Source: a virus | Length of the DNA: 27,309 nucleotides | Strand: one strand, 5' to 3' | Virus record (IMG/VR): IMGVR_UViG_3300037225_000433 | Location: 1 to 27,309 of that record | Shown: positions 10,933-24,324 of the stretch, piece by piece | How positions within the stretch are numbered: the first letter of the stretch is position 1 | Layout of the letters: every line of letters begins with the position of its first letter | The notes under the pieces: generated by a model | Database searches by the model: none | What the model saw: only the letters and a program-made list of their open reading frames with translations | What the model was told of the DNA's origin: nothing | Position numbers and translations under genes: made by a program

Positions 10933-11477
10933 CAGAGTAAATCCTCCGCTATAAGTTTGTCGTACTTCGTTGGTGTGCTCCACGATCTAATCAGAGAGCC
11001 AAGCATCACCCACTCTTCATAGGTGAAGTGGTTTGACTTTGCTCGGTTGCAACGTGGGCAGCACACCACGCAGTTGCTGCGCGAGTATCCAAGGGAGTTG
11101 TTCTTGCGGTCCAAGTTGTAGGCAGAGCCGCGCACACCTTTCTTAATGTTTAGGTGAGGAACCCATGGAACCTTTGCTTCACAGTAGTGGCAGTCTAAGC
11201 CCACAAACTTCAAGTACTGCTTGTAAGACAAGTCAACCACTGCTCTTCCTTTAGAAGCCCTACACAGTAGGTTGTACAGAGCCTCATAAGGTTTCAGTTG
11301 ATTGTGGGCAGAATAACACCCAACGCAGGTGCTAGTCTTCCCTCTGTAAAGGTTAGACGTTGACATATCTGCGGTTCTTCCACATTTGCAAATGCACTTC
11401 CACTTGGGATGCCCATCTGAGTAATGACCTTTCCCAAGAATAGTCCAGTTTCTAAGTACATCTCCGACTTTAATCAT
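10932..11477 (-). CDS. HNH homing-type endonuclease
   Basis: A 181-residue protein. An N-terminal zinc module (C28, C30, C32 and C51, C54, with the intervening SNLYRGKTST) is of the kind that precedes DNA-binding modules in homing nucleases. The HNH core runs from about 95 to 147: CHYC (96-99), NLDRKNNSLGYS (121-132), NCVVCCPRCNRAK (135-147). It cuts DNA at a specific site and can spread by recombination. The gene starts by ATGA overlap with the end of the DNA polymerase gene; homing genes often sit next to a polymerase gene, as in T-odd and SPO1-like phages. A GTG three codons upstream is a weaker start. Confidence 0.8.
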   Translation of the reverse strand: MIKVGDVLRNWTILGKGHYSDGHPKWKCICKCGRTADMSTSNLYRGKTSTCVGCYSAHNQLKPYEALYNLLCRASKGRAVVDLSYKQYLKFVGLDCHYCEAKVPWVPHLNIKKGVRGSAYNLDRKNNSLGYSRSNCVVCCPRCNRAKSNHFTYEEWVMLGSLIRSWSTPTKYDKLIAEDLL

Positions 11478-13984
11478 TTCATCCACCGATCCGCTATGTG
11501 ATAGTCCGCAGTCATTTTCACTTTATGCATTACTTCTGCCGCCGCTCTAGCAAAGGCATCTTCTACTAACTCAGCAACAACTTGTCCATATCGTTTTGGA
11601 CATTCCAGTAAAAGTTCGTCGTGAACCATGTTGACTACTTTCGCTTTGTACTGTGGAAGGGAGTGCCAAAGGTAAGGTTTTCCCGAAACATCAAAGCCGC
11701 AGCCCATACTGCGCTTAATTATCGAGGCATTTGTTCCCTGAATGCAATGATTTTTACCTCTGCGCTCTGTGCTGCCGTTGAGTGCCCATATTGCCCGGTC
11801 TACCTCTTTCTCCGTGGGATTGCGGTGTGTGAGTGCACGCAGTTCTTCTTTAGTAGGCTTTCTAAGGTTAGCTGCTTTGAATCTAAATATACAAGCCTCC
11901 GACTCATCGTCGGACAATTCCAGAGATTCCTCGCGCTCATCAATCCACCACTGCCGCGCCATTTCCCTTGTAGGAACTGGGAATGAACGGCGTCTGCCGA
12001 ACATGTCCCGTGCTTCACGCATGGACTTTGCCAATTTACCACTGCGCTCCAAGTAGCCCCAAACATCAGGAAAAGCAGCTTCGTGTAAGCGCATCAGCTC
12101 TTTTGCCGCATCGACAGTGATTCCAAGTTCATCAGCTAGTGCAGCAGGTCCACCACCATAGCACAGCAGGAAGTTGATGGATTTAGTTTTCTGTCGTAGC
12201 TCTGTATGTCCTTTACATTTGCACTTCTGACGCATCATCTCACCTATAACTCCGAGAGGATATTTCTTTACAGTTTCAGCAGTGTGCAATGCATAGTACT
12301 CGCAGCCTTCTAATTTAAGAGAAGGCCATTTCTCCGGCTCTAGGATTTCTGTAGAAACCGAGTGAACGTCCCATCCTTTGTTGAAGGCCATGATCCATGT
12401 TGTGGCATCTGCCAACTCTGCAATTATACGCAACTCGGCTCCTGCCATGTCCACAGTTACTAAACAATACCCGTCAGGTTCATCTTTATCTGGTGGACTA
12501 GCAATGAAGCACGCTCGTACTTCATCATCTTTTGGAAGATTCTGCGCGTTAGGCTTCGATGATGAGGTTCTTCCGGTTTCAGCTTCAAGCTGGTTAAAAA
12601 GGCAATGTAGTCGGCCATCAACTGGGTGTCTCCAACCTTCTTTCGAGAGTGGCTTCGTGATCCACCTTTGCGTCCATTGTAAGCCATAAGTACCCGTGTC
12701 CTTCTTTCCCTTGTTGTACTTTCTCAACGTTTGGATCAGCGGCCTATCATTGAACCGCAGCAGCGTGTCATCAGTTGTGTCTTTGATGCTACGCATACCC
12801 GGCATCTGTTGCAACGCCGCGAGCAGTTGGTCACGCGAGCCATAGTTGATGTAGGCTTGACCCTCACACTTCTCCAGCATGTTCTTCCACTCAGTGTGCT
12901 TCTTGCTGAGTTCTGAATGGGACTTGCGTGCATCCGCCTTGTCTTTGGCTCGCGCCTGTTCTGCCGCCTTCAAAAGCACACTTAGCGCGGCTTTCTTCTC
13001 CTTGTCCTTCTCCAAACGCTTCTGGGCTGCTAGGTCAATCTCGTGTGGTGTCGGGAACTGGAAGTCTTCCTGCCAGTGTTTATAGCGACGTTCAATTTCT
13101 TCGTGGTCGATCTGTTTGTCCTTGTCACCAACGATGGGCAGGAAACCTTCGTCCAAAGTCCTGAGTTGTCCTATACGTGCTTCCAACACGTGTTGAATAC
13201 GAATCTTCCAGCGGTCATCATCCAAGTTCTGACCATTTATGTGCATGTCTGCGAACGTGCCTATGGCATCATTCTCAATCTGCGCTGTGGTCAGCAGTTG
13301 GTCAGGTGTCATTATGTTGATCTGGGCCTGTCGCATCGCGTGTGGGAAGCGTACGTCGAACGCGGCGTAATCTATCTGCTTCTGAGTCAGCGGGGTTTCC
13401 AGATCGAAACTTTCTTGCTCAGTCTTGTCGATAAGCAGTTTGAAGTGACGCGCAGCGATAGACGCCATGGAGAACTCTGCCATCTTCTTCAGTGAGATTG
13501 TCCCGGCCTGAATCACGCGCTCTGCCATGTCGGTAGAGAACAGATGCCAGATACGCTTGCCGAAGTTGAACCAGAATACCATGTACTCGAACGCTAGGTT
13601 CTGTCCAACCTTCAAGAAGTCTCGGGTGCAGAGGACAGGCTCTAGTACTTCGAAGATTGCATCGTAGACTCCATCGTTGTGAATTCCAAACTCTCCCTGC
13701 GTAGCAACCAGCCTGTCCTTGGACCCAGCGAAGGCGAGCAGATCAATCACATACTGTTCGTCGCGGTCACCAATCTGAATTGTACGTACACGCCGAAACC
13801 AGAAGTCATTGCAGATATCCGTCTCCGTGTCGAGACCTACGGCAAAATCCCCAGAAAGTCTCTTGCGTGCGATATAATCTTTCAACAGCAGAAGTCCAGC
13901 CGCATTGGCAACGAGTACAGGCTTCAGATGAGGTTGTAGAGCACCCAAGTCAATCGGGTGCAGTTGTTGCACAAGTTCGGGCAT
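11474..13984 (-). CDS. Family A DNA polymerase with 3'-5' exonuclease
   Basis: An 836-residue replicative enzyme. Exonuclease motifs: LDTETD (51-56), GQNLAFEY (127-134; Glu instead of the usual Asp) and YAAFD (206-210). Polymerase motif A is DMAGAELR (512-519), motif B R597, K601, F605 and YG (609-610), and motif C VHDE (787-790). NHCIQGTNASI (745-755) is also typical. F605 is the residue that in other polymerases is F or Y and sets discrimination against dideoxynucleotides. There is no 5'-3' exonuclease domain. A Lys/Ala-rich helical stretch (321-371) and an insertion of about 45 residues before the IQG motif are unusual. The nearest SD (AAGGAGAG) is about 15 bases from the ATG, farther than normal; a TATAAT sits in the gap. 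Confidence 0.93.
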   Translation of the reverse strand: MPELVQQLHPIDLGALQPHLKPVLVANAAGLLLLKDYIARKRLSGDFAVGLDTETDICNDFWFRRVRTIQIGDRDEQYVIDLLAFAGSKDRLVATQGEFGIHNDGVYDAIFEVLEPVLCTRDFLKVGQNLAFEYMVFWFNFGKRIWHLFSTDMAERVIQAGTISLKKMAEFSMASIAARHFKLLIDKTEQESFDLETPLTQKQIDYAAFDVRFPHAMRQAQINIMTPDQLLTTAQIENDAIGTFADMHINGQNLDDDRWKIRIQHVLEARIGQLRTLDEGFLPIVGDKDKQIDHEEIERRYKHWQEDFQFPTPHEIDLAAQKRLEKDKEKKAALSVLLKAAEQARAKDKADARKSHSELSKKHTEWKNMLEKCEGQAYINYGSRDQLLAALQQMPGMRSIKDTTDDTLLRFNDRPLIQTLRKYNKGKKDTGTYGLQWTQRWITKPLSKEGWRHPVDGRLHCLFNQLEAETGRTSSSKPNAQNLPKDDEVRACFIASPPDKDEPDGYCLVTVDMAGAELRIIAELADATTWIMAFNKGWDVHSVSTEILEPEKWPSLKLEGCEYYALHTAETVKKYPLGVIGEMMRQKCKCKGHTELRQKTKSINFLLCYGGGPAALADELGITVDAAKELMRLHEAAFPDVWGYLERSGKLAKSMREARDMFGRRRSFPVPTREMARQWWIDEREESLELSDDESEACIFRFKAANLRKPTKEELRALTHRNPTEKEVDRAIWALNGSTERRGKNHCIQGTNASIIKRSMGCGFDVSGKPYLWHSLPQYKAKVVNMVHDELLLECPKRYGQVVAELVEDAFARAAAEVMHKVKMTADYHIADRWMK

Positions 13985-15193: not shown

Positions 15194-15528
15194 GCCTCGA
15201 ATAACAGGCACATCTCTTCCGCACCTGCCGCGCAATGCGGCGTAGCACGCCGGGGCAGTCCCTAGTCATTCTCCTTTCTAGGTTGTACGCCCCGGCGTAG
15301 AGACATTGAGACGTAGCTGTACAGCAGGCGGCGCAACAAGCCGCCTCGTCTCACCAAGTTTATATCCAACCAACAGTAGTTGGTTCAGGCCGCGCACACA
15401 CCATACCCGGCCTTTAATCTTGCATCAGTCACGCGCAACCAAAGACACGCATACGACAAAGATGCACCGAGGGCGCGGCTCTTTAAGGGATGTCCGCGCC
15501 ACTCATTGAGATTTTAATCTGCAACACC
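15194..15528 (+). ncRNA. Candidate structured RNA or long 5' leader
   Basis: No gene lies here. Perfect or near-perfect stems in order: GCCGC/GCGGC (15227-15241); ACGCCGGGGC (15247-15256) with GCCCCGGCGT (15289-15298), enclosing CCTAG/CTAGG; GAGACG (15308-15313) with CGTCTC (15347-15352), enclosing GCTGTACAGC and AGGCGGC/GCCGCCT (15326-15346); AACCAAC-agta-GTTGGTT (15368-15385); AGGCC/GGCCT (about 15387-15413); GGCGCGG/CCGCGCC (15472-15500). Such dense, non-overlapping helices behind a promoter suggest a functional RNA. It may be a free RNA or the leader of the HNH-AP2 gene at 15581. Confidence 0.5.
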
Positions 15529-15574
15529 GAGGGCGGGTGCCAGTAACACCCGTCCTCAACTCTTTACTGGAGAG
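15529..15574 (+). promoter_or_regulatory. Pseudoknot over the SD of the HNH-AP2 gene (copy 1)
   Basis: An 11-base-pair stem (15529-15539 with 15547-15557, one G-U pair) has the loop CCAGTAA (15540-15546). Its exact complement TTACTGG lies at 15564-15570 and includes the first two bases of the SD GGAGAG. Pairing would make an H-type pseudoknot that hides the ribosome binding site. Equivalent elements with different, matching sequences occur at 17228 and 22575. Confidence 0.7.
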
Positions 15575-15580
15575 TCACAA

Positions 15581-16075
15581 ATGAAAGAAATAAAGTTAAC
15601 GCAAGGTTTTGTTGCACTCGTTGACGACGAAGACTTCGAGCGAGTAAACGCATACAAGTGGCAAGTTTTAATAGGTAGGAGCAACGTTTACGCTAGGCAC
15701 ACCTCCTCCATTGATCGCAAAGATATTTTGATGCACAGATTCATCTTGGGTGTAACAGACAAAGCAAGCAAAGTTGACCACGAAGATCACTACGGTTTGA
15801 ACAATCAACGTTACAACTTACGATCAGCTACTAACCAAGAGAACTGCTTCAACCAGCGAGCATCGAGCGACAACACGTCAGGGTATAAAGGTGTGTGCTG
15901 GAAAAAAGGAAGAAACAAGTGGGTAGCGATGATAAGGCTAAATGGAAAGCTACTTCATCTTGGCTACTTCATTTCAATTGAAGACGCCGCTAGAGCATAT
16001 GATGCTGCGTCGTTGAAGTACTTTGGTGAGTTCGCCTTTACCAACATGATGGCTCAGAAAGAAAAGAGTCAATAA
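15581..16075 (+). CDS. HNH-AP2 homing endonuclease (copy 1)
   Basis: A 164-residue protein. MHRFILG (51-57) and VDHEDHYGLNNQRYNLR (65-81) form the HNH nuclease, and residues 100-154 are an AP2 DNA-binding domain (SGYKGVCWKKGRNKWVAMI, then HLGYF, AARAYDAAS and FGEFAFTN). Such proteins are free-standing or intron-borne homing nucleases. It is a clear paralogue of the gene at 17278: the first 20 residues are nearly identical. The SD (GGAGAG) is part of a predicted pseudoknot, so translation is probably restricted. Confidence 0.85.
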   Translation: MKEIKLTQGFVALVDDEDFERVNAYKWQVLIGRSNVYARHTSSIDRKDILMHRFILGVTDKASKVDHEDHYGLNNQRYNLRSATNQENCFNQRASSDNTSGYKGVCWKKGRNKWVAMIRLNGKLLHLGYFISIEDAARAYDAASLKYFGEFAFTNMMAQKEKSQ

Positions 16076-16260
16076 TGTCTGACATCGACTCCGATGACTA
16101 CTTCCTGCTACTCAGTGCTGAGCAGTTGAAGAGTATGACCTACGCTCAGGCGCAGGCCGAGTATGAACGTACCACCTTCGTCTCCGATGAGATGAAAGCA
16201 GAGTGTAATGCTGAGTTGGAAGCAGCGAAGAAAAATCATTACAAGATTCCTAAAGTTTAG
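16075..16260 (+). CDS. 61-residue acidic hypothetical protein
   Basis: The ATG shares a base with the stop of the HNH-AP2 gene (TAATG). The product (MSDIDSDDYFLLLSAEQLKS...) is acidic and helical, with a Tyr-rich tail. The SD (AAAGAG) is modest, so it is probably translated by coupling. Family not recognised. The tRNA-Ala gene begins four bases after its stop. Confidence 0.55.
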   Translation: MSDIDSDDYFLLLSAEQLKSMTYAQAQAEYERTTFVSDEMKAECNAELEAAKKNHYKIPKV

Positions 16261-16263
16261 AGT

Positions 16264-16337
16264 GGGCGGTTAGTTTAACGGGAGAACTTCTCGTTTGCAC
16301 CGAGAGGATGAGTGTTCAATTCACTCACTGTCCACCA
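16264..16337 (+). tRNA. tRNA-Ala (anticodon TGC), CCA encoded
   Basis: Acceptor GGGCGGT (16264-16270) pairs with ACTGTCC (16327-16333), followed by A and an encoded CCA. The anticodon stem TCTCG/CGAGA closes the loop TTTGCAC, giving anticodon TGC (16296-16298). The T arm is GAGTG-TTCAATT-CACTC. The third acceptor pair is G-T (G3:U70), the identity mark for alanine. The D stem is short (three pairs). It reads GCA-type Ala codons. Confidence 0.85.
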
Positions 16338-16352
16338 AAGCGGGGAGAGGTA

Positions 16353-16379
16353 GCAGGTTCAAATCCTGTCGGTTCCACA
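16353..16379 (+). pseudogene. tRNA 3' fragment (T arm and acceptor only)
   Basis: GCAGG-TTCAAAT-CCTGT is a perfect T arm, followed by CGGTTCC, A and CA, as at the end of a tRNA. No matching 5' half (GGAACCG...) lies upstream, only 15 bases from the tRNA-Ala end. It is a remnant of a tRNA, or an attachment-site-like copy of a host tRNA end. Confidence 0.5.
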
Positions 16380-16419
16380 TGTCCCAAAGCAGACTGCCCT
16401 AGTGGCTGGCGCGGGACGG

Positions 16420-16488
16420 GGCCGTAGCTCATTCTGGCAGAGCGCTCCCAAAACTTGGAGGTCGTAGGTTCGAATCCTTCCACGGCAC
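16420..16488 (+). pseudogene. Degenerate tRNA-like sequence
   Basis: GCTC-N9-GAGC is a good D arm and GTAGG-TTCGAAT-CCTTC a T arm with one mismatch. GCCGT and ACGGC can pair as part of the acceptor, but two bases seem to be missing between acceptor and D arm. The anticodon stem CTCC/GGAG has only four pairs and an eight-base loop (CAAAACTT) without T33. It probably cannot make a normal tRNA. Confidence 0.45.
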
Positions 16489-16516
16489 GCCGTGTAGCTC
16501 AGTCGGATAGAGCGCC
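16489..16516 (+). pseudogene. tRNA 5' fragment (acceptor and D arm only)
   Basis: GCCGTG, TA, then the D arm GCTC-AGTCGGATA-GAGC are the 5' half of a tRNA. No anticodon arm or 3' half follows. It directly abuts the degenerate tRNA-like sequence, whose 3' end (CACGGC) would pair with this 5' end. Confidence 0.45.
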
Positions 16517-16709
16517 AAGTAAAGTTATGGGTTGATGGCAGAGAATGAGGCATGCACCCGGCAATGGGCCGGGACTACGCGAGACGCGCCCCTCGCAATA
16601 CCCACCAAGATTCGACACGTTTCCTGACTCCCCTTGACTGGGGTACAATATAAAGCATGCAGCATTCGTGCTGGCGGTCAGGCTTGTCGAAAGTCGCCTT
16701 CGGGCGCAC

Positions 16710-16760
16710 GCAGATGTTCTGGGCATGCAGATGTTCTGGGCATGCAGATGTTCTGGGCAT
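16710..16760. repeat. Three perfect tandem copies of a 17-base unit
   Basis: GCAGATGTTCTGGGCAT is repeated exactly three times head to tail (16710-16726, 16727-16743, 16744-16760). The unit length is not a multiple of three, so it is not a coding repeat. There are no spacers, so it is not a CRISPR array. Confidence 0.9.
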
Positions 16761-16777
16761 TGATCAGCCTGTCTTCT

Positions 16778-16939
16778 GCAAGTCCCGAGACTGCTGGGCC
16801 TTTAGTGGCACTGTGGGCATAGCAACAGTTGTGGAGCAAGATCACTCCCGGTGTTGCATAACCGCTCTGCTTTCGCCGCAGACTACGGTGCGGGGTACGG
16901 AAACCGCAAGTCCCGAGACTGCTGGGCCTTTAGTGGCAC
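16778..16939. repeat. 34-base direct repeat, two copies 128 bases apart
   Basis: The same 34 bases occur at 16778-16811 and 16906-16939, from GCAAGTCCCGAG to TTTAGTGGCAC, with no mismatch. Within each copy GGGCCTTTAG lies near the end. The copies bracket a 94-base segment that may have been inserted or may be deleted by recombination. Confidence 0.85.
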
Positions 16940-17227
16940 CATAGGGACACAGGCGTATCAACTGCGCCAATGCCAACTCAGTTGACGGTCTGGGACAGAA
17001 GTTCGCTGTTGAACTGTCGCCAGTATATTGAACAGCGGTCGGGAGCGTACGGTGGTAGCGCTCAGACATCCACGCCACTACGCAGTTAATAGGTCACCCA
17101 CGCGGATACGCAAGGGCACCGCTGCGCTGGGGATTCACCCGCACCCTGAAGTTTGTAAGCCCTCCTCGCGTGGAGGCTGACAGCGGGATACTTTAGAAAC
17201 ATCCTAAGGCTTAGCGGCTTTGGGCTA

Positions 17228-17273
17228 GACTCGGAGGGTGCTCCAACACCCTCCTTGAGTCGTCCTTGGAGGG
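17228..17273 (+). promoter_or_regulatory. Pseudoknot over the SD of the second HNH-AP2 gene (copy 2)
   Basis: GACTC and GGAGGGTG (17228-17240) pair with CACCCTCC and GAGTC (17247-17261) with a two-base TT bulge. The loop CTCCAA (17241-17246) is the exact complement of TTGGAG (17266-17271), which includes the SD GGAGGG. The stem matches the copy at 24264 in shape, with compensating base changes. Confidence 0.7.
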
Positions 17274-17277
17274 ACAA

Positions 17278-17775
17278 ATGAAGGAAGTACAATTAACGCA
17301 GGGTTATGTTGCTTTGGTCGATGATGAAGATTTTGAGCGTGTAAACAAGTTCTCATGGTATGCACAAGTGCAGCGATTCAAAGACAAAAGAGTTCGCAAT
17401 GTGTATGCTCAGAAAAAAGAGAAATTATTAAGCGGCGCAAGGACTACAAAGTCTATGCACGCTTTTATTGTGAACAATCCTGACCACACAGTCGAAGTTG
17501 ATCACGAGGATCACAATGGTTTGAACAACCAAAGATACAACCTTCGTAAAGCGACCAAAGCTGACAATCAGCACAACACCCGCAAACGCATAAATAATAC
17601 TTCTGGGTATAAAGGTGCTTATTGGCATAAGAAGGACAAAGTGTGGAGAGCTATGATAGGTGTAAACAGCAAACTCATACACCTAGGTTCGTACGCAACT
17701 GCTGAGCAAGCCGCAATGGCGTACGATGAATCGGCTAGACGACTGTTCGGAGAGTTTGCAAATACAAATTTCTAA
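17278..17775 (+). CDS. HNH-AP2 homing endonuclease (copy 2)
   Basis: A 165-residue paralogue of the gene at 15581. VDHEDHNGLNNQRYNLR (74-90) is the HNH part and residues 108-165 the AP2 domain (TSGYKGAYWHKKD, HLGSY, AAMAYDESA, LFGEFANTNF). It has a slightly longer segment between the N-terminal VALVDDEDFERVN and the nuclease. The ATG at 17278 follows GGAGGGACAA, which the upstream pseudoknot would cover. A TTG four codons upstream is not needed. A terminator follows. Confidence 0.85.
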   Translation: MKEVQLTQGYVALVDDEDFERVNKFSWYAQVQRFKDKRVRNVYAQKKEKLLSGARTTKSMHAFIVNNPDHTVEVDHEDHNGLNNQRYNLRKATKADNQHNTRKRINNTSGYKGAYWHKKDKVWRAMIGVNSKLIHLGSYATAEQAAMAYDESARRLFGEFANTNF

Positions 17776-17790
17776 GCAGTAACAAACAGA

Positions 17791-17825
17791 CCTCACCTTT
17801 CAACGGGTGAGGTTTTGTCGTTTAT
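17791..17825 (+). terminator. Rho-independent terminator
   Basis: CCTCACC (17791-17797) pairs with GGTGAGG (17806-17812) and is followed by TTTTGTCGTTT. It separates the endonuclease/tRNA island from the packaging operon. Confidence 0.8.
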
Positions 17826-17905
17826 ACGCGCAGAGGCCGCGCAGCAACTCGCCTCACTTCATCTTGCCCGAAAGTTTCTCAGAGCGGTGGGCAGTGGAGT
17901 TCATT

Positions 17906-18238
17906 ATGCGAGCGTCTTCCTACCTAAAGGGTTTGTACAATTTTTACAATGACAAGTATTTTGCTGGAGAACTTCCGCAGGATACAAAACTTTTCTTTGT
18001 TCATAAAATTGGAAAAAGCAGCAGCGTAGCAAAGAGCAATTGCGCTATCACTTACTTTACCAATCCGCCAGTAATTGCCATTCAGAGAACAAAGAAAATG
18101 AAATCGATGCGTTATGTGGTAGCAGATTTACTCCATGAAATGTCTCACTTATCCAAACCGAGAGCAGAACATGGAGAAGTGTTTCAAGAAGAAATGAAGC
18201 GCCTAGCAGAAGCTGGAGCATTTCAGGATGTATGGTAA
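17906..18238 (+). CDS. SprT-like zinc metallopeptidase
   Basis: A 110-residue protein. LLHEMSHL (75-82) has the HExxH zinc and catalytic motif, and EHGEVFQEEM (88-97) supplies the third ligand region, as in SprT/Spartan-like domains. The N-terminal LKGLYNFYNDKYFAGELP is also the usual SprT opening. The role in phages is unknown; cellular Spartan cleaves DNA-protein crosslinks. The start at 17906 follows GTGGAGTTCATT. It is the first gene of the rightward packaging operon, about 25 bases before the next gene. Confidence 0.75.
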   Translation: MRASSYLKGLYNFYNDKYFAGELPQDTKLFFVHKIGKSSSVAKSNCAITYFTNPPVIAIQRTKKMKSMRYVVADLLHEMSHLSKPRAEHGEVFQEEMKRLAEAGAFQDVW

Positions 18239-18263
18239 ATAAAAACTTTAAGGAGACTCAGAA

Positions 18264-18626
18264 ATGTCAATCGAAACAGTAGTTGAAGGTGCAGTAGCAG
18301 CAGTTGAAGGTGAAGCAAAGAGTGTTGCTGAAGCCGTTGTGGCAGAAGCCGCAAAGGTCGAAGGCGAAGTGAAGGCCGAAGTGGCGAAGGTCGAAGCAGT
18401 GGTGAAAGCCGCACTCGTCCAGATCACCGCAGATGAGAAGTTATTTTTGCGAGAGGCTGAACTTGAATTTCTCAAAGCACAGATGGAGATTCAACGCCTT
18501 ACGAAGCTGGCCGAAGAAAAGTCGAAGGCGTACACAGCCTACATCGAGAACCTGTACAAGACCTACGCAATTACCAAGGTCGAGTATGTGTTTGACGGTG
18601 CAGTAAACGTCTTCAAGAAACTGTAA
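18264..18626 (+). CDS. Ala/Glu/Val-rich coiled-coil protein
   Basis: A 120-residue protein after AAGGAGACTCAGAA. The first 55 residues are repeats of the type AxVEGEAKxV built almost only of A, E, V and K, which predicts a long helix. Residues 56-100 continue as charged coiled coil and the end is aromatic (YVFDGAVNVFKKL). Possibly a structural or assembly protein given its place before the terminase genes; family not recognised. Confidence 0.65.
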   Translation: MSIETVVEGAVAAVEGEAKSVAEAVVAEAAKVEGEVKAEVAKVEAVVKAALVQITADEKLFLREAELEFLKAQMEIQRLTKLAEEKSKAYTAYIENLYKTYAITKVEYVFDGAVNVFKKL

Positions 18627-18635
18627 GGAGAAGCA

Positions 18636-19166
18636 ATGGCTGACTCAGCCGAAAAGAAAACAACCCAGACGGAACCAGAAATTCCGTCTGGGTCTACAGC
18701 TTTGATGGTGGCAAACCAGCATGGGGCTGTGCATGAGGTCATAAAGGACGGGAAATCTGGGAAGTTCTTAGCAAAGAAGAAGCCATTGATCCCGACCATA
18801 GACTTCACGCGCAAAGAACGCAAGATTCTGAACACACCTCGTGAGCAAGGCGATAAGAAGGGAATGGCGGAACATGAGATATCCTTCCGAAATATCCTTC
18901 GTATATCACAGATAGAAACTTCAGACCCTAAGTTAACAATGGCTGTAGTCAAGGCGTACGAGATTGTGATGCGCCGCGCACTGGGCAAAGAAGCAACGTC
19001 GGAACAAGACTTAGACAGGATGGAGAAGCAAGCCATAACGGGATACTTTATAACAGCCCCTGCACTTCCCAACCCAGTAGTTGAAGACGGAGACAAGCCA
19101 AAAGACAAGCCTACGCAACCATCGTTTGCAGAGGTAATTGGCGTAGTCACGAACGAAAAGAAATAG
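18636..19166 (+). CDS. Hypothetical protein, possible small terminase subunit
   Basis: A 176-residue protein (SD AAGGAGAAGCA) directly before TerL. Basic residues cluster at 55-80 (KKKPLIPTIDFTRKERKIL) and the middle is helical (KLTMAVVKAYEIVMRRAL), while both ends are polar and disordered. The position and size fit a small terminase, the DNA-recognition partner of TerL, but no helix-turn-helix is obvious, so the call is from context only. Confidence 0.4.
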   Translation: MADSAEKKTTQTEPEIPSGSTALMVANQHGAVHEVIKDGKSGKFLAKKKPLIPTIDFTRKERKILNTPREQGDKKGMAEHEISFRNILRISQIETSDPKLTMAVVKAYEIVMRRALGKEATSEQDLDRMEKQAITGYFITAPALPNPVVEDGDKPKDKPTQPSFAEVIGVVTNEKK

Positions 19167-19176
19167 AGGCAACTCA

Positions 19177-20865
19177 GTGCCCCGTAAAAAGATTGTAGAT
19201 GCAGTAGTGCAGAAGCCTTACATCAATGCGGATGGAACGTTGAATTTCAACAAGATTTTCATGTTCCAGCCTAAGCAGATGGAGTTGCTAAAGAACGTTT
19301 CACGCAGCGGTGCTCTAGGCACAAAAGAGTACGTGCAACCAGTCGCAGGCCAGTGTCTCAGCACTGGAGGTATCCGTTCAGGGAAAACCTGCGGGTGGCT
19401 GATGTTCTTCGTGATGCATTATTGCTTGCGGTGGAAGAACTGCAACCTTCTAGTCCTCCGTAGAAACTTCAAAGAGTTGGAAAACGGCGCGATTGCTGAC
19501 TTCAAAGCATTCATGCCGCCTGAGTTGTATGAGTATGACCAGACGAAACACGTAGCGACATTGCAGAATGGCTCGCGTGTAGTCTTCGGCCATTGCCAGA
19601 ACAACAAAGATCGAGATATTGAACAGTACTTAGGACAGGCATACCCAGCAATCATCGTTGATGAATGCGGCCAGTTCTCGCCGGATGCATGGATGATGCT
19701 TTACTCACGTAACATCGTCAACGCAGCTTGCGAACGTGATGAAGCAGGAAACCTGCCCATCCCAGCCATCGTAGGATGCACGAACCCCTTGGGTCCACAC
19801 TACGAATATTACCGTACCCTGTTCGTCCAGAAGGAGCCATGGAATCCCAGTGAGAACGTAAAGCGTGATCCTGTGGATGGTTCATGGTGGGAGCAGATTT
19901 CTGGAGAGTGGAACAAGGTTTACGATCCAGACGAATACGCTTATCAGCGCTCGACAGTGATGGACAACCCAGAACTGCTCGCACGCGATCCCGGCATCAT
20001 TGCACGTTTGATGTCGATGCCTAAGGCGAAGCGCGACAAAGTTTTATACGGGTACGACGGTCAGGTCGAGGGTCAATACTTCGACTGCTTTGATCCTCAG
20101 TATCACGTACTCAACCTCAGAGAAGAACCCGACGCAATCGTTTGGCAGGACTATCAGCCAGTGTGGGCGGGAGAAGACTGGGGAATGCAGCACGCCAACG
20201 CCACTTATCTCTTCACGAAGGCGATGGTCAGGAACTCAGTTGGAGACGACTACAGACTCAAGACTGTGTGTTTCGCTGAATTGGTTGTGACAGGTGGCAA
20301 GACGATGGATGAACTAGCGTCCCTCATCAAAGCCAAGTGCCACCGACCAGACGGCGTCCCTGTCAAACTCAACGCAATCTACTTCTCTCACGAAAAGTTC
20401 AATCGCCAGATGGATGACAGGACACCTGCGAACGAATACTCTAAGGCTTTGAGACTTGTGGGCCTGCCGCCAGTTACAGCAGCAACGCAAGATCGCATAG
20501 GTTCCGCATCGCTGATGTACAACGCCATCAAGAAGGGTGAACTTGTAATCCTCGACACTTGCAAGGAGATAATTCTTGCGATCCCGTCGCTGATGCGAGA
20601 CCCAAAAATACTAGATGATGTGCTCAAGGTTAACGCTAAAGGCGATGATGCGTACGATGGTTTTCGTTATGGGTTGTACGGTCACCTTGCAGCTAGAAAG
20701 AAGCCTGCTGCACAAGCAGAAGCCGAACGAGTTATTGCTTTGAAAAAGTCCGACCCATTAGCTGCTCACTTCTTAAAAATGAAGCTAGACGCAGAATCTG
20801 CGAACAGGACATCATCATTCAGACCACCAGATCAACCTGTGTGGGTTGGAAAGCAGGATCAGTGA
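19177..20865 (+). CDS. terL: Terminase large subunit
   Basis: A 562-residue DNA packaging motor. ATPase: Walker A GGIRSGKT (64-71), Walker B AIIVDE (158-163), and a coupling motif at GCTNP (200-204). The nuclease domain starts near GEDWG (D334) and has the C-terminal acidic motif DDAYDGFRYGL (490-500). It cuts concatemeric DNA and drives it into the head through the portal. The start codon is GTG at 19177, with GAGG upstream, ten bases after the previous stop. The last 60 residues are an extended tail. Confidence 0.92.
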   Translation: MPRKKIVDAVVQKPYINADGTLNFNKIFMFQPKQMELLKNVSRSGALGTKEYVQPVAGQCLSTGGIRSGKTCGWLMFFVMHYCLRWKNCNLLVLRRNFKELENGAIADFKAFMPPELYEYDQTKHVATLQNGSRVVFGHCQNNKDRDIEQYLGQAYPAIIVDECGQFSPDAWMMLYSRNIVNAACERDEAGNLPIPAIVGCTNPLGPHYEYYRTLFVQKEPWNPSENVKRDPVDGSWWEQISGEWNKVYDPDEYAYQRSTVMDNPELLARDPGIIARLMSMPKAKRDKVLYGYDGQVEGQYFDCFDPQYHVLNLREEPDAIVWQDYQPVWAGEDWGMQHANATYLFTKAMVRNSVGDDYRLKTVCFAELVVTGGKTMDELASLIKAKCHRPDGVPVKLNAIYFSHEKFNRQMDDRTPANEYSKALRLVGLPPVTAATQDRIGSASLMYNAIKKGELVILDTCKEIILAIPSLMRDPKILDDVLKVNAKGDDAYDGFRYGLYGHLAARKKPAAQAEAERVIALKKSDPLAAHFLKMKLDAESANRTSSFRPPDQPVWVGKQDQ

Positions 20866-21056
20866 TGATTAAGTGTGACCGTTGCAAAAAAGAAGTAGAC
20901 GGTGCTGTCGACGGTATACTTAGTGCTGGATGCTACGTTGGTTGGTTGAAGTTTATGAACCCCGGTGAACATCTCATCTGCGATGCCTGCATGTGGTCAG
21001 ACCCACGATATATTGCAGTGTACGGTGTGAATCTTACTCTGGAGGCTCAGCAATGA
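20865..21056 (+). CDS. 63-residue zinc-ribbon protein
   Basis: MIKCDRCKKEVDGAVDGILS has CDRC (4-7), and CDAC lies at about 47-50, so it can hold one zinc ion in a CxxC...CxxC ribbon. The ATG shares a base with the TerL stop (TGATG). A GGA lies before it. Possibly a packaging accessory; unproven. Confidence 0.65.
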   Translation: MIKCDRCKKEVDGAVDGILSAGCYVGWLKFMNPGEHLICDACMWSDPRYIAVYGVNLTLEAQQ

Positions 21057-21427
21057 GTTGGACAGGAACAATCAGAGATTTGTGGGACGATCTATTCTAC
21101 TCTTCATTAGTTCAGCGTCTTGAACAAGACCTGATGCTGTGCAGAGCGGACGCTCAGCAGTTGCGCCAAGACAAAGACGCAGTGATTGGTGATCTGCGTT
21201 CGGAGAAGGCACTGCTTCAAGCGAAGGTTGGTATGTACGAACTGAATATCAATCGGCGCGTTGGCATTGATCCGGCAGCAAAGAACCCAAAGAAGCCCAG
21301 CTTCGCCAACTTCAACTCACCACCAGCACTATCGCCGTGGCAGAGAGAAGTAATGGAGCACGACGCACAGAACGCAAAGGAATTGGAAGAAGAGGCATTA
21401 GCCTCGAAGGGCGCAACTAATGTCTAA
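21053..21427 (+). CDS. 124-residue coiled-coil hypothetical protein
   Basis: Start at 21053 after GGAGGCTCAGCA, overlapping the previous stop by four bases. Residues 18-65 are a heptad-rich helix (LEQDLMLCRADAQQLRQDKD, then RSEKALLQAKV), followed by a proline-rich stretch and an acidic helix. It may be a small structural or scaffold-like protein. Family not recognised. Confidence 0.6.
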   Translation: MSWTGTIRDLWDDLFYSSLVQRLEQDLMLCRADAQQLRQDKDAVIGDLRSEKALLQAKVGMYELNINRRVGIDPAAKNPKKPSFANFNSPPALSPWQREVMEHDAQNAKELEEEALASKGATNV

Positions 21428-21638
21428 GAAAGAAATCAGCAGCATCTATATAACCTGCGAGGAAATTGACGGCAAGGAAGCATACCGTACCGAAGTCAAT
21501 TACAAATCAAAACAGTCCATATCACAAAAGCGTGGATGGGTTCCTTCCTCAATGGGAGAGTCGGAAAAGTTCACAAGTACCTCGTGCGAAACTTTGTGTA
21601 AGAAACTCAAAGAAGTACTAGGTGGTTGCAGCAAGTAA
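21420..21638 (+). CDS. 72-residue hypothetical protein
   Basis: MSKKEISSIYITCEEIDGKE begins a strand-rich first half, with a basic middle (YKSKQSISQKRGW) and a helical end containing Cys (ETLCKKLKEVLGGCSK). It overlaps the preceding gene by eight bases and has a GAAGGG upstream. Function unknown. Confidence 0.6.
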   Translation: MSKKEISSIYITCEEIDGKEAYRTEVNYKSKQSISQKRGWVPSSMGESEKFTSTSCETLCKKLKEVLGGCSK

Positions 21639-21664
21639 CTCGGCACTGCCGAAGAGGAGTAACA

Positions 21665-22156
21665 ATGTTCACATCAAAAAGCGGCAAAAAGTTTGGCAGC
21701 GTCTTCGCTGGTAAGCATTACGATGAGAATCACACGGAAGACGGGATGCATTCTGAGTCGCCAGAGCATGAAGCTAAGGAATCCCCAGAGTTTGAGGCGG
21801 GTGAGCAAGAAGGTGCTGAAGAGCACAAAGCCGAAGGAGAAGGTGAAGGCGAAGAGCAACCCGGTGAGGAAGTGCACCCTGTCGTAGCAGAGCACGGCAA
21901 GGCCCACAAGACTATCGTCACGCACGACCACGAAGCCGGACGCCACACTGTCACCTCGCATCACAAAGACGGACACGTTCACACAAACGTACACGAGCAC
22001 GCTCACAAAGCACACGACGAGGCACGTAGCCTTGCCGGGGTTCCACCCGCAGGCAAAGAGAAGAACGAAGAGAAGGAAGGCTTCGGCCACAAGGATCAAG
22101 GACAGCAAGGCGCACCGTCTGAGGAAGATGGATTCGCGATGCCAAACTTAGTCTAA
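21665..22156 (+). CDS. Glu- and His-rich low-complexity protein
   Basis: A 163-residue protein, start at 21665 after AGAGGAGTAACA. Residues 30-75 are almost all E, G, A and K, and 80-125 hold more than fifteen histidines in the pattern HxxH/HxH (GRHTVTSHHKDGHVHTNVHE). It must be largely disordered, and the His-rich part could bind divalent metal or shield charge inside the head. No family recognised. Confidence 0.65.
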   Translation: MFTSKSGKKFGSVFAGKHYDENHTEDGMHSESPEHEAKESPEFEAGEQEGAEEHKAEGEGEGEEQPGEEVHPVVAEHGKAHKTIVTHDHEAGRHTVTSHHKDGHVHTNVHEHAHKAHDEARSLAGVPPAGKEKNEEKEGFGHKDQGQQGAPSEEDGFAMPNLV

Positions 22157-22164
22157 GGAGCGTC

Positions 22165-22326
22165 ATGCCGTTCAAGTCGATTGCACAACAGCATTTTCTG
22201 GAGGCCCACCCAGACAAAGTGGGCGGCAGGGGAAAGTTGAAGGAGTGGGAACAAGCCACGAACTTCAAAACCCTGCCAAGGAAGGCCGCAGGCTTAGGTC
22301 GGAAGCGGGAGAAAGCGAATGGCTAA
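22165..22326 (+). CDS. 53-residue basic phage protein (MPFKSIAQQ type)
   Basis: The product is MPFKSIAQQHFLEAHPDKVG, then a KLKEWEQATNF stretch and a strongly basic tail (RKAAGLGRKREKANG). Short proteins of this opening are common in phage structural regions with no known role. The SD is AAGGAGCGTC and it overlaps the next gene by eight bases. Confidence 0.65.
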   Translation: MPFKSIAQQHFLEAHPDKVGGRGKLKEWEQATNFKTLPRKAAGLGRKREKANG

Positions 22327-22546
22327 GTTTGCGTTCTCCATCATCAAAGAGCCGAAGACTGGGTATCAGTCGCACCACCCCGGAAGTTCTGAGCACTGCT
22401 TCAACTGTTCAAAGTTCAATCGAGAAGAAAGTGGCTGCACTGGGGAAAAGATGAAAGAACTTAGCAAACGTCCTCGACTACCCAACGGGGATATAAAAGT
22501 ACACCCAGTAGCTTATTGCAGGTTTTGGGAAGACATCAAGAAGTAA
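22319..22546 (+). CDS. 75-residue Cys4 protein
   Basis: Begins MAKFAFSIIKEPKTGYQSHH. Four cysteines (HCFNCSKF, SGCTG, AYCRFWE) are spaced like the small four-Cys iron-sulfur (HiPIP-like) or zinc proteins found in many phages; the last Cys in YCRFW is typical of that group. The metal is not decided. The SD is GGGAGAAAGCGA. Confidence 0.6.
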   Translation: MAKFAFSIIKEPKTGYQSHHPGSSEHCFNCSKFNREESGCTGEKMKELSKRPRLPNGDIKVHPVAYCRFWEDIKK

Positions 22547-22551
22547 AGAAA

Positions 22552-22621
22552 CTCAGGGGTTGCTCCCTGAGATAGAGTTGGGAGGTGCCGATTACACCTC
22601 CTACTCGACCTTAATCGGAGG
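22552..22621 (+). promoter_or_regulatory. Pseudoknot over the SD of the GIY-YIG gene (copy 3)
   Basis: A first hairpin, CTCAGGG/CCCTGAG (22552-22571), is followed by GAGT and GGAGGTG (22575-22587) pairing with CACCTCC and ACTC (22595-22606). The loop CCGATTA (22588-22594) is the exact complement of TAATCGG (22612-22618), whose last two bases begin the SD GGAGG. This is the third instance of the element at 15529 and 17228. Confidence 0.7.
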
Positions 22622-22625
22622 AACT

Positions 22626-23177
22626 GTGAAACAAGCGAATTGTCATCCAGAAAGGACTCTGTACTGTAAGAAGCTGTGTAGGCAGTGTTATCACCACAAC
22701 TACCAGAAGACTTACAGGAAAGAGTCTATAAGAACAAGAAGTTTTGATGTACAAGATTTACCAATAGGTTTCTACGTATACATATGGCTACGAAAAGATG
22801 GCACACCATACTACGTAGGAAAAGGAAGCCACGACAGGGCTTATGACACACGCAACCACAGAGTGCATTGTCCTAAAGTTTTAGATCGCATTGTAATTTT
22901 CCCATCACAGTCTGAAGACGATGCGTTTGAAACAGAGATTGCGCTGATCTGGTATTACGGGCGCAAAGATTTAGGTCTCGGTTGCTTGAGGAACCTTACC
23001 GATGGTGGAGAAAATCCGCCTAAAGGAAAGCGTAAAGGGCAGCATCCTACTTTGGAGACTAGAGAGAAAATAGCAAAGACACTTACGGGTGGGCATCACT
23101 CTAGCACACTAAAAGGAAAACCTTGGACAGAAGCAAGAAGGTTTGCCCAAAGCAAAAGGAATACACAATGTCAATAG
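22626..23177 (+). CDS. GIY-YIG homing endonuclease with NUMOD3
   Basis: A 183-residue protein. An N-terminal Cys motif (C6, C14, C18, C21: a CxxRTLYCKKLCRQCY-like finger) is followed by the GIY-YIG core: FYVYIW (49-54), YYVGKG (62-67), the catalytic E104 in FETE, and N123. Residues 128-170 (GGENPPKGKRKG, ETREKIAKTL, LKGKPW) are a NUMOD3-type DNA-binding repeat. It is a mobile nuclease inserted among structural genes. GTG at 22626 is chosen because GGAGGAACT precedes it; a frame open from 22560 would run through the regulatory hairpins. Confidence 0.85.
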   Translation: MKQANCHPERTLYCKKLCRQCYHHNYQKTYRKESIRTRSFDVQDLPIGFYVYIWLRKDGTPYYVGKGSHDRAYDTRNHRVHCPKVLDRIVIFPSQSEDDAFETEIALIWYYGRKDLGLGCLRNLTDGGENPPKGKRKGQHPTLETREKIAKTLTGGHHSSTLKGKPWTEARRFAQSKRNTQCQ

Positions 23178-23484: not shown

Positions 23485-23678
23485 GGCACAAGAAGCACAA
23501 GGTGGATTTAGGTTCACATGGTTCCTTCAATGTGAACAAAGGTGGATTACACCGTGCACTGGGAGTACCAGAGGGACAGAAGCTGACGGCTGGTGAAAAA
23601 GAACCCAAGCCGGGAGACAGCGAGCACACAAAGCACATGAAGGCTTCGGCCAAAGGCTTTGCAGCAATGAAGCACTAA
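23469..23678 (+). CDS. 69-residue basic, Gly/His/Lys-rich protein
   Basis: MAIGVGHKKHKVDLGSHGSF begins a protein with several His-Lys pairs and the motif HRALGVPEGQKLTAGE, ending KGFAAMKH. The SD is AAGGAGAAGCAACC. The last 20 bases of the gene are duplicated 224 bases downstream. Related small proteins occur near portal genes in other phages; role unknown. Confidence 0.6.
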   Translation: MAIGVGHKKHKVDLGSHGSFNVNKGGLHRALGVPEGQKLTAGEKEPKPGDSEHTKHMKASAKGFAAMKH

Positions 23679-23740
23679 GAGGTCAGCAACCATCCGTGAA
23701 TCACACACGGCTCTGGTGAGGTTAAGAGTACACCTCAATC

Positions 23741-23816: not shown

Positions 23817-23828
23817 ATTAGCAACATC

Positions 23829-23880
23829 TCACGTCTAAGTAACGTGGGCTAGCTCGGCGGGTGCTCCAACACCCCCTTGT
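23829..23880 (+). repeat. Repeated double hairpin, copy with a damaged stem (copy 4)
   Basis: CACGT-CTAAGTA-ACGTG is followed by GGGTG-CTCCAA-CACCC. The first 46 bases (23829-23874) are identical to 24241-24286. One G is missing from the 3' side of the second stem and the GAGC that would close it is gone, next to the direct repeat at 23882. No TTGGAG partner follows. Confidence 0.7.
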
Positions 23881-23938
23881 ATTTGCAGCAATGAAGCACT
23901 AAGTGTAGATGTAAAATAAAATAATCAGGAGACTCAGA

Positions 23939-24232
23939 ATGAACACAAAAGGCACACCAGAAAAAGTAGATTCACCAGATACTGGAATTGATTGGTACGA
24001 TTTCGGTGGAGGAAGTACAGTTGCACCTACAACTTTCCTAGCATCAGATGGAAAAACAGAAAAGATACCCGGAGTTGGTGAGGGGTCTACTATGGCTGCT
24101 TTGTCATGTGTAAAGAATGGCCTACTTTACTACAAAATCCTTACAGGTGATTTTACCGAAAAGGATTTACCGAACATGTTAAAGGACCACACACCAACCT
24201 TTCAACAAGAAGTAAACGCAGCAACTGCATAA
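23939..24232 (+). CDS. 97-residue hypothetical protein
   Basis: Begins MNTKGTPEKVDSPDTGIDWY, has a Gly-rich centre (DFGGGSTVAPTTFL, then GVGEGSTMAAL) and a mixed C-terminal half (YYKILTGDFTEKDLPNMLKD). The SD is AGGAGACTCAGA, the same leader as at 18264. Soluble, strand-rich; family not recognised. It stands between two copies of the repeated hairpin. Confidence 0.6.
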   Translation: MNTKGTPEKVDSPDTGIDWYDFGGGSTVAPTTFLASDGKTEKIPGVGEGSTMAALSCVKNGLLYYKILTGDFTEKDLPNMLKDHTPTFQQEVNAATA

Positions 24233-24240
24233 AACATACC

Positions 24241-24295
24241 TCACGTCTAAGTAACGTGGGCTAGCTCGGCGGGTGCTCCAACACCCGCCTTGAGC
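24241..24295 (+). repeat. Repeated double hairpin upstream of the portal gene (copy 5)
   Basis: CACGT-CTAAGTA-ACGTG is followed by GCTC and GGCGGGTG (24264-24275), loop CTCCAA, then CACCCGCC, a TT bulge and GAGC (24282-24295). The stem has the same shape and bulge as copy 2 at 17228 with compensating changes (C-G for A-T). No full TTGGAG partner precedes the portal gene; its SD (GAGGAG) could pair only with CTCC. Confidence 0.65.
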
Positions 24296-24324
24296 GTAGA
24301 CGAATGTACTGGTAGAGGAGACAC

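Follow-up and report, generated by a model that had tools for sequence, protein, structure and literature searches.

A covarying pseudoknot leader over the Shine-Dalgarno sequence of mobile nuclease genes in uncultivated phages

Introduction

Why should three homing endonuclease genes in one phage genome fragment each follow a hairpin whose loop is the reverse complement of the next Shine-Dalgarno (SD) region, and does such an element belong to the mobile gene? These questions are raised by a stretch of viral DNA of 27,309 nucleotides (IMG/VR record IMGVR_UViG_3300037225_000433, positions 1 to 27,309), which is analyzed here at its full length and is referred to as the window. The element is a 5′ leader of roughly 90 nucleotides in which a hairpin loop and the SD strand covary as a pseudoknot. 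It stands before unrelated mobile nucleases. At one locus it was inserted along with the nuclease, and the copies that have lost the loop-SD pairing precede no nuclease.

The RNA-level control of homing endonucleases has so far been represented by a handful of hairpins from T4-like phages, each studied singly. Here, one RNA family with clear pseudoknot covariation is shared by nuclease folds that are unrelated to one another and is inserted alongside them, which makes it testable with reporters why selfish nucleases are tightly regulated and whether this regulation belongs to the mobile unit. The leader also adds a family absent from Rfam and offers those who study RNA switches a natural series of differing loop-SD pairs. 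No description of it was found in the open-access literature (subscription papers were outside the search), and we rate it as a novel RNA family that fills a known regulatory role and is unusually shared among unrelated selfish genes.

Three leaders in the window

The three hairpins and their loop complements reported in the initial annotation were all found in the sequence at the positions given there, and the paired strands are exact reverse complements: CCAGTAA/TTACTGG at site 1, CTCCAA/TTGGAG at site 2, and CCGATTA/TAATCGG at site 3. A strict scan of the whole window for a stem of at least 7 bp, a loop of 6-7 nt, a full loop complement within 14 nt, and then a start codon returned exactly these three sites on the plus strand and a single match, the mirror image of site 1, on the minus strand. 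The same scan yielded 18 matches over 150 shuffles, or 0.12 per shuffled window on both strands; thus, a chance origin of three plus-strand sites was already unlikely before any relatives were searched.

The element proved to be bigger than initially described. In addition to the loop-bearing hairpin (P2, with loop A), it comprises an outer P2 stem, an upstream hairpin (P1), and a small hairpin (P3) around the target strand (loop B). P1 is present upstream at sites 2 and 3 and poorly conserved at site 1, whereas P3 encloses the target strand at all three sites (ACTCT/AGAGT, GTCC/GGAC, and CCT/AGG). All features below lie on the plus strand, and bit scores refer to the covariance model R1 introduced in the next section.

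Site 1 (R1 match at 15495-15582, 31.2 bits) includes the P2 hairpin GAGGGCGGGTG-(CCAGTAA)-CACCCGTCCTC at 15529-15557, with loop A at 15540-15546 and an RNA fold z of -4.3, and P3 at 15559-15575 (ACTCT at 15559-15563, AGAGT at 15571-15575). Loop B (TTACTGG, 15564-15570) is located inside P3 and overlaps the SD sequence GGAGAG; the AP2-HNH homing-type endonuclease gene 1 (15581-16075; Pfam AP2, 7.9e-9; a weak HNH_3 match) follows. At site 2 (17194-17285, 57.9 bits), the R1 model and folding place a P1 hairpin with the loop UUAGCG at 17203-17224. P2 at 17228-17261, which is backed by covariation, consists of the outer stem GACTC/GAGTC, the inner stem GGAGGGTG/CACCCTCC, and loop A CTCCAA (17241-17246), and P3 (GTCC/GGAC, 17262-17275) surrounds loop B TTGGAG (17266-17271), which overlaps the SD sequence GGAGG. 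The AP2-HNH endonuclease gene 2 behind it (17278-17775) is 54% identical to gene 1. At site 3 (R1 match at 22543-22630, 81.1 bits), P1, CTCAGGG-(GTTGCT)-CCCTGAG (22552-22571), starts a few nucleotides 3′ of the upstream stop codon (22544-22546). Its P2 at 22575-22606 is formed by the outer stem GAGT/ACTC, the inner stem GGGAGGTG/CACCTCC, and loop A CCGATTA (22588-22594), whereas P3 (CCT/AGG, 22609-22621) lies around loop B TAATCGG (22612-22618), the SD sequence GGAGG being 22617-22621. The GIY-YIG endonuclease gene of this site (22626-23177) was assigned by the residues YVYIWLR...YYVGKG in its translation and has no Pfam match.

Two details of the initial description hold in part. The distance of 4-6 nt between stem and target is correct if the outer stem is counted, but measures 6-11 nt from the inner stem; GGTG...CACC is the stem signature found most often, but it is not universal.

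Further copies of the leader

Copies were gathered in IMG/VR through protein relatives of the AP2-HNH and GIY-YIG nucleases and through DNA patterns, which together yielded some fifty additional ones (collected loci carry L numbers below). A search with the pattern GGCGGTG returned four known copies and two pseudoknot-like sites ahead of non-nucleases. A pattern scan of genome contigs was discarded, the pattern being too loose and its matches chance-like. R1 was built from 44 sequences and describes P1 and P2 only, so that the pseudoknot cannot be rewarded. It detected 78 places in 19 of the 24 phage records, with up to eight per record, and no copies in the five records chosen solely for AP2-HNH relatives. 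Over all collected loci, R1 gave 120 matches, 90 of them distinct, and approximately one-half of the latter lie outside the 44 building sequences. An element proposed from three copies is therefore represented by about 90 in this wide covariance search.

Script scoring assigned a complete loop complement to 75 of the 90 copies and a complement to all but one loop base to another 3. Five of the 12 copies missed by the script have, when read by eye, a pseudoknot of 7-8 bp in a slightly different hairpin; a second parser recognized 79 pseudoknot copies, plus similar misses. With the script, the second parser, and the reading by eye combined, the pairing is present in about 83-84 of the 90 distinct copies. 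No similar leader was found in isolated phages by blastn with two leaders against 50,697 phage records; relatives of the nucleases do exist in isolated phages.

Covariation of the loop and the Shine-Dalgarno strand

The proposal that loop and SD strand change together because they base-pair survived tests that were able to refute it. Circularity was avoided by means of pattern matches whose five central loop positions were unspecified. In two such pattern sets, the exact 7-nt complement occurred in 22 of 25 and 20 of 23 distinct copies, the six exceptions being GC-rich chance matches, and permutation of loops among copies left no complements at all. Among the 68 distinct rows with 7-nt loops aligned by the pseudoknot-less model, 6.49 of the 7 positions are paired, compared with 4.15 after shuffling (maximum 4.57). 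All four Watson-Crick types occur at the middle loop positions in near-equal numbers (e.g., A-U 20, U-A 19, G-C 12, and C-G 11).

For the whole structure, pairs were counted in an alignment produced by the model, to which the pseudoknot and P3 had been added. Standard pairs fill 93.2% of cells (68.3% when shuffled), 511 cells are changed on both sides (137 when shuffled), and the covariation score is 0.624, compared with 0.186 for shuffled partners and at most 0.133 when one strand is slid by 1-3 columns. P3 averages 3.49 bp, whereas shuffling of its partners gives 2.51 bp and a top value of 3.0 in 2000 shuffles; its covarying variants include AACT/AGTT, ATCT/AGAT, GTCC/GGAC, ACCCT/AGGGT, and CACTCT/AGAGTG.

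In P1 and P2, 110 G-U pairs stand against 21 A-C pairs, which indicates that the structure is formed by RNA of the coding strand rather than by DNA or the antisense strand. This asymmetry bears on the idea that the inverted repeats act as DNA, serving as recombination or endonuclease recognition sites, an idea that would suit the location of the elements at the left edge of insertions and the occurrence of one leader before different nucleases (both described below). We rejected a DNA-level repeat on the wobble-pair asymmetry and regard it as highly improbable, given also that the distance to the SD sequence and the start codon is fixed and that the non-nested arrangement is directly explained by single-stranded RNA.

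Architecture and geometry

From 5′ to 3′, the consensus consists of AUC, the P1 hairpin of 6-9 bp, CUAG, and P2 with loop A, followed, often after GACCU, by loop B (NNNNNGG), AGG, and the start codon. P2 has a variable outer stem of 3-5 bp and an inner stem whose commonest form is GGGAGGUG/CACCUCCC; loop A is 6 or 7 nt long and mostly CCNNNNN. The end of loop B lies 5-13 nt from the start codon, mostly 7-8 nt, and the SD sequence (GGAGG or GGAG) falls within loop B and the 3′ arm of P3 in about 84 of 90 copies. In the pairing of a hairpin loop with a downstream strand, the element agrees with an H-type pseudoknot. P1 begins 4-7 nt after the upstream stop codon in 28 copies. Its loops belong to a few recurring classes (UUAGCG, UGAUCA, and GUUGCU; e.g., window 17211-17217 and 22559-22564), for which neither a partner nor a link to any other part of the element was found. 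Several P1 loops are self-complementary (UGAUCA, UUAUAA, and UAAUUA), and dimerization or a protein site is possible.

In the 79 parsed copies, P2 spans 11-13 bp in 67 and the gap before loop B is 4-6 nt in 66; the first and second pseudoknot loops have 0 nt, and in most copies the third loop must cross the P2 of 11-13 bp with 4-6 nt. With such junctions and so short a third loop, the outer stem, the closing pair of P2, or P3 must give. By idealized coordinates, the RNA may fold alternatively into the pseudoknot with inner P2 or into the full P2 with P3, and partial fraying would solve the problem of third-loop length. P3 either competes for the SD strand of the pseudoknot or cooperates there. 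A kissing interaction between loop A and the loop of P3 within one molecule was discarded, since the 0-2 nt that separate P2 from P3 are too few to connect the far ends of the stacked complex; this arrangement was kept solely as alternative states, since P3 and the pseudoknot both covary.

The same geometry bears on whether the leader is a two-state switch, in which P2 with P3 and P2 with the pseudoknot exclude each other and one of the two states leaves the SD sequence more accessible; the choice between them could be made by ribosomes that complete the upstream gene, by the speed of transcription, or by a protein. That P3 and the pseudoknot both covary, that 4-6 nt after an 11-13 bp P2 are too short for both in A-form in most copies, and that P1 starts so close behind the upstream stop codon in many copies agree with a switch. 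However, there is no ligand-like conserved core, P3 has just 3 bp in most copies, and the pseudoknot could persist at all times if the structure were bent or partly frayed; we regard a switch as possible but doubtful.

Nuclease genes behind the leader

The leader is common to non-homologous mobile nucleases of the GIY-YIG, HNH/EndoVII, AP2-HNH, T5orf172, and PD-(D/E)XK types, which extends the initial observation of two families. Pfam matches in the downstream open reading frames (ORFs) comprise Endonuclease_7, HNH, HNH_5, HNH_3, NUMOD3, GIY-YIG, SegE, and AP2, with individual cases of T5orf172/MUG113 (L387), GIY-YIG (L121), Endonuclease_7 (L384 and L398), HNH_3 (L394), and PDDEXK_5 (L390, 9e-27). 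Many other downstream ORFs, including that of the GIY-YIG protein in the window, have nuclease motifs that do not reach a Pfam score. Identical leaders occur before different families, as for the loop CCTATCA ahead of both GIY-YIG and HNH genes on one contig, so that leader and ORF have been shuffled. The pseudoknot is not a general trait of AP2-HNH leaders: it was seen in 5 of 48 relatives and in 4 of 55 control genes, with no enrichment, and thus belongs to the leader family rather than to the protein.

The co-insertion of leader and nuclease was traced at the locus of site 3, which was found elsewhere by means of the upstream gene (gene A, window 22319-22546). The site is empty in L409, L411-L415, and L417, where gene A and the next gene (gene B) abut or overlap (TAAATG, TAATG), and occupied in the window and in L408, where the leader starts directly after the gene A stop codon and the nuclease adjoins or overlaps the start of gene B (ATG at 23168 in the window). 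The inserted nuclease differs, being GIY-YIG in the window and HNH in L408. Since the A/B junction is empty in relatives, the leader is part of the inserted cassette at this locus. The empty sites, together with the presence of one leader before different families, bear out the earlier suggestion that the control element travels with mobile nucleases.

Six R1 matches retain P1 and P2 without the loop complement (two in the window and one each in L396, L386, L399, and L121), and none of them precedes a nuclease, which fits decay after nuclease loss; a seventh (L209) looks like chance. The two in the window lie on the plus strand at 23819-23906 (37.1 bits) and 24231-24312 (36.3 bits), both with the loop CTCCAA, the gene after the second one starting at 24325 and encoding 865 amino acids. 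The end of the upstream gene (TTTGCAGCAATGAAGCACTAAG, window 23658-23682) recurs at 23882-23904, directly behind the first remnant lacking the pseudoknot, which would fit the loss or repair of a cassette at this place.

Four other nuclease-like ORFs of the window have no leader. A sigma70-like promoter directly precedes three of them (6587, 7489, and 14582), and the fourth (10935-11486, minus strand) overlaps the end of a polymerase gene. Among the leaders, scoring of sigma70-like sites upstream of P1 alone identified a promoter in 7 of 78, and the resulting transcripts would carry the whole structure. The leader is thus found mostly with cassettes that ride on the transcripts of others. More speculatively, it may form a selfish-gene module, a two-state leader swapped among GIY-YIG, HNH, PD-(D/E)XK, and T5orf172 nucleases by leader-ORF shuffling, which would gate nuclease translation by the activity of the invaded operon; we hold this broader scheme to be a tentative one.

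The nuclease stop codon frequently shares bases with the start of the phage gene behind it (many loci; window 23168-23177 and 16072-16077), as in the TAATG at the end of endonuclease gene 1, and the translation of the next gene may depend on that of the nuclease. This overlap replaces the original one of the interrupted gene pair. Such coupling, by which the next gene would need nuclease translation, is among the points in favor of a leader that enhances translation or insulates it, as a ribosome stand-by site or by protecting the 3′ end of the upstream mRNA, rather than represses it; the SD sequence and its spacing are near ideal, and T4 mRNA structures that improve initiation are known (PMC3014915). 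Such a role is unlikely in our view, since the pairing strand takes the first GG of the SD sequence and P3 the rest, and purely insulating stem-loops would not need loop-SD covariation.

Proposed mode of action

We consider it probable that the element is a modular cis-acting 5′ leader that sequesters the SD sequence of free-standing mobile nuclease cassettes in a group of uncultivated phages. In the nascent mRNA, P1 would fold first, followed by P2, whose loop of 6-7 nt (typically CCNNNNN) would pair along its full length with NNNNNGG. The paired GG opens the SD sequence GGAGG, and the following AGG can pair with the CCU just upstream, forming P3. Covered by the pseudoknot and the small hairpin, the SD sequence would allow initiation at the nuclease ORF that is weak or conditional on the long polycistronic transcript invaded by the cassette, and the burden that the nuclease places on the phage would thereby be limited. 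The leader would accordingly act as a translational repressor, and P1 presumably buffers the structure against ribosomes terminating 4-7 nt upstream.

Several observations weigh against sequestration in this form. In A-form geometry, even a straight third loop would need about 6 nt to span 12 bp, and a textbook H-type arrangement with the full P2 and a third loop of 4-6 nt appears strained. The median duplex energy is -7.2 kcal/mol for the pseudoknot (with no loop penalty) and -9.3 kcal/mol for the SD:anti-SD duplex; the former is no stronger than the latter, which suggests tuning rather than a complete block. Where stop and start codons overlap, the gene after the nuclease could suffer as well from a complete block. 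With respect to the nuclease link, a full pseudoknot leader precedes a 331-residue protein without a Pfam match (L143/L396; L396:339-1331), the one clear non-nuclease exception in the family, and two similar pseudoknots in other phages stand before non-nucleases. Finally, the seed copies of R1 had been found using pairing as a criterion, though the model itself ignores pairing.

Comparison with known systems

The closest functional parallel is provided by the hairpins that sequester the ribosome-binding sites of I-TevI, I-TevII, I-TevIII, segB, and Aeh1 mobE (PMC2988022). In T4, homing endonucleases are blocked by a plain hairpin that late promoters bypass, the rationale being to limit nuclease translation on host transcripts (PMC2988022; PMC3014915). 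Both systems place an RNA structure over the SD sequence of phage GIY-YIG or HNH genes, intron-encoded or free-standing. The T4-type hairpins are simple and nested, whereas the leader combines a non-nested covarying loop-SD pairing with P1 and P3 and is one family spread with non-homologous nucleases. Its few sigma70-like promoters lie upstream of the whole structure and, in contrast to the T4 late promoters, would not skip it. The leader is most likely similar to the T4 hairpins in purpose and different in structure, and it probably does not use the T4 mechanism.

An H-type pseudoknot linked to translation is also present in the 5′ leader of gene 32 mRNA in T4 and T2, where it lies approximately 67 nt upstream as a protein-binding site (PMC3014915), whereas the pseudoknot strand of the present leader is part of the SD sequence. 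The preQ1, SAM-II, and SAM/SAH riboswitches likewise pair a hairpin loop with a downstream SD sequence as a pseudoknot; in the leader, however, the loop varies freely and a conserved ligand core is lacking. Rfam searches at E ≤ 1 with the elements of the window and of four loci gave no match, and their identity with a group I intron or another known RNA was therefore rejected.

The int-alpA RNA (RF02996) shares with the leader a structured 5′ region with a loop complement upstream of AP2-HNH relatives, found on other contigs, but its outer stem encloses two hairpins and its complement is upstream of the SD sequence, not inside it. Its model gave no match on the window elements, whereas a like search detected int-alpA in L012, L025, and L041. 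The int-alpA RNA or look-alikes of it are located directly upstream of AP2-HNH genes (L041:1914-1979, L012:1920-1983, and L025:1916-1982), and similar leaders occur in L006, L019, L043, L046, and L051. The second-hairpin loop of this type has a complement about 16-24 nt before the start codon (e.g., ATATCTCC/GGAGATAT, AACCAGAAC/GTTCTGG, and ATGTACCAA/TTGGTACAT). This suggests a second pseudoknot leader, independent of the first, and may offer a clue to int-alpA.

Neighboring RNA elements

The region between nuclease genes 1 and 2 (window 16264-16540 and 16640-17170) contains a tRNA-Ala, a weak second tRNA, a sub-threshold match to YrlA (Y-RNA-like), and the twice-repeated segment gcaagtcccgagactgctgggcctttagtggcac, the repeat region having no Rfam match. 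A group I intron (RF00028, E 8e-18) at L197:970-1184 lies approximately 60 nt upstream of a leader (L197:1248-1335) and its GIY-YIG gene. The viral contig L006 encodes a permuted transfer-messenger RNA (RF04321, above the gathering score) at 1557-1772, with an AP2-HNH gene close behind it.

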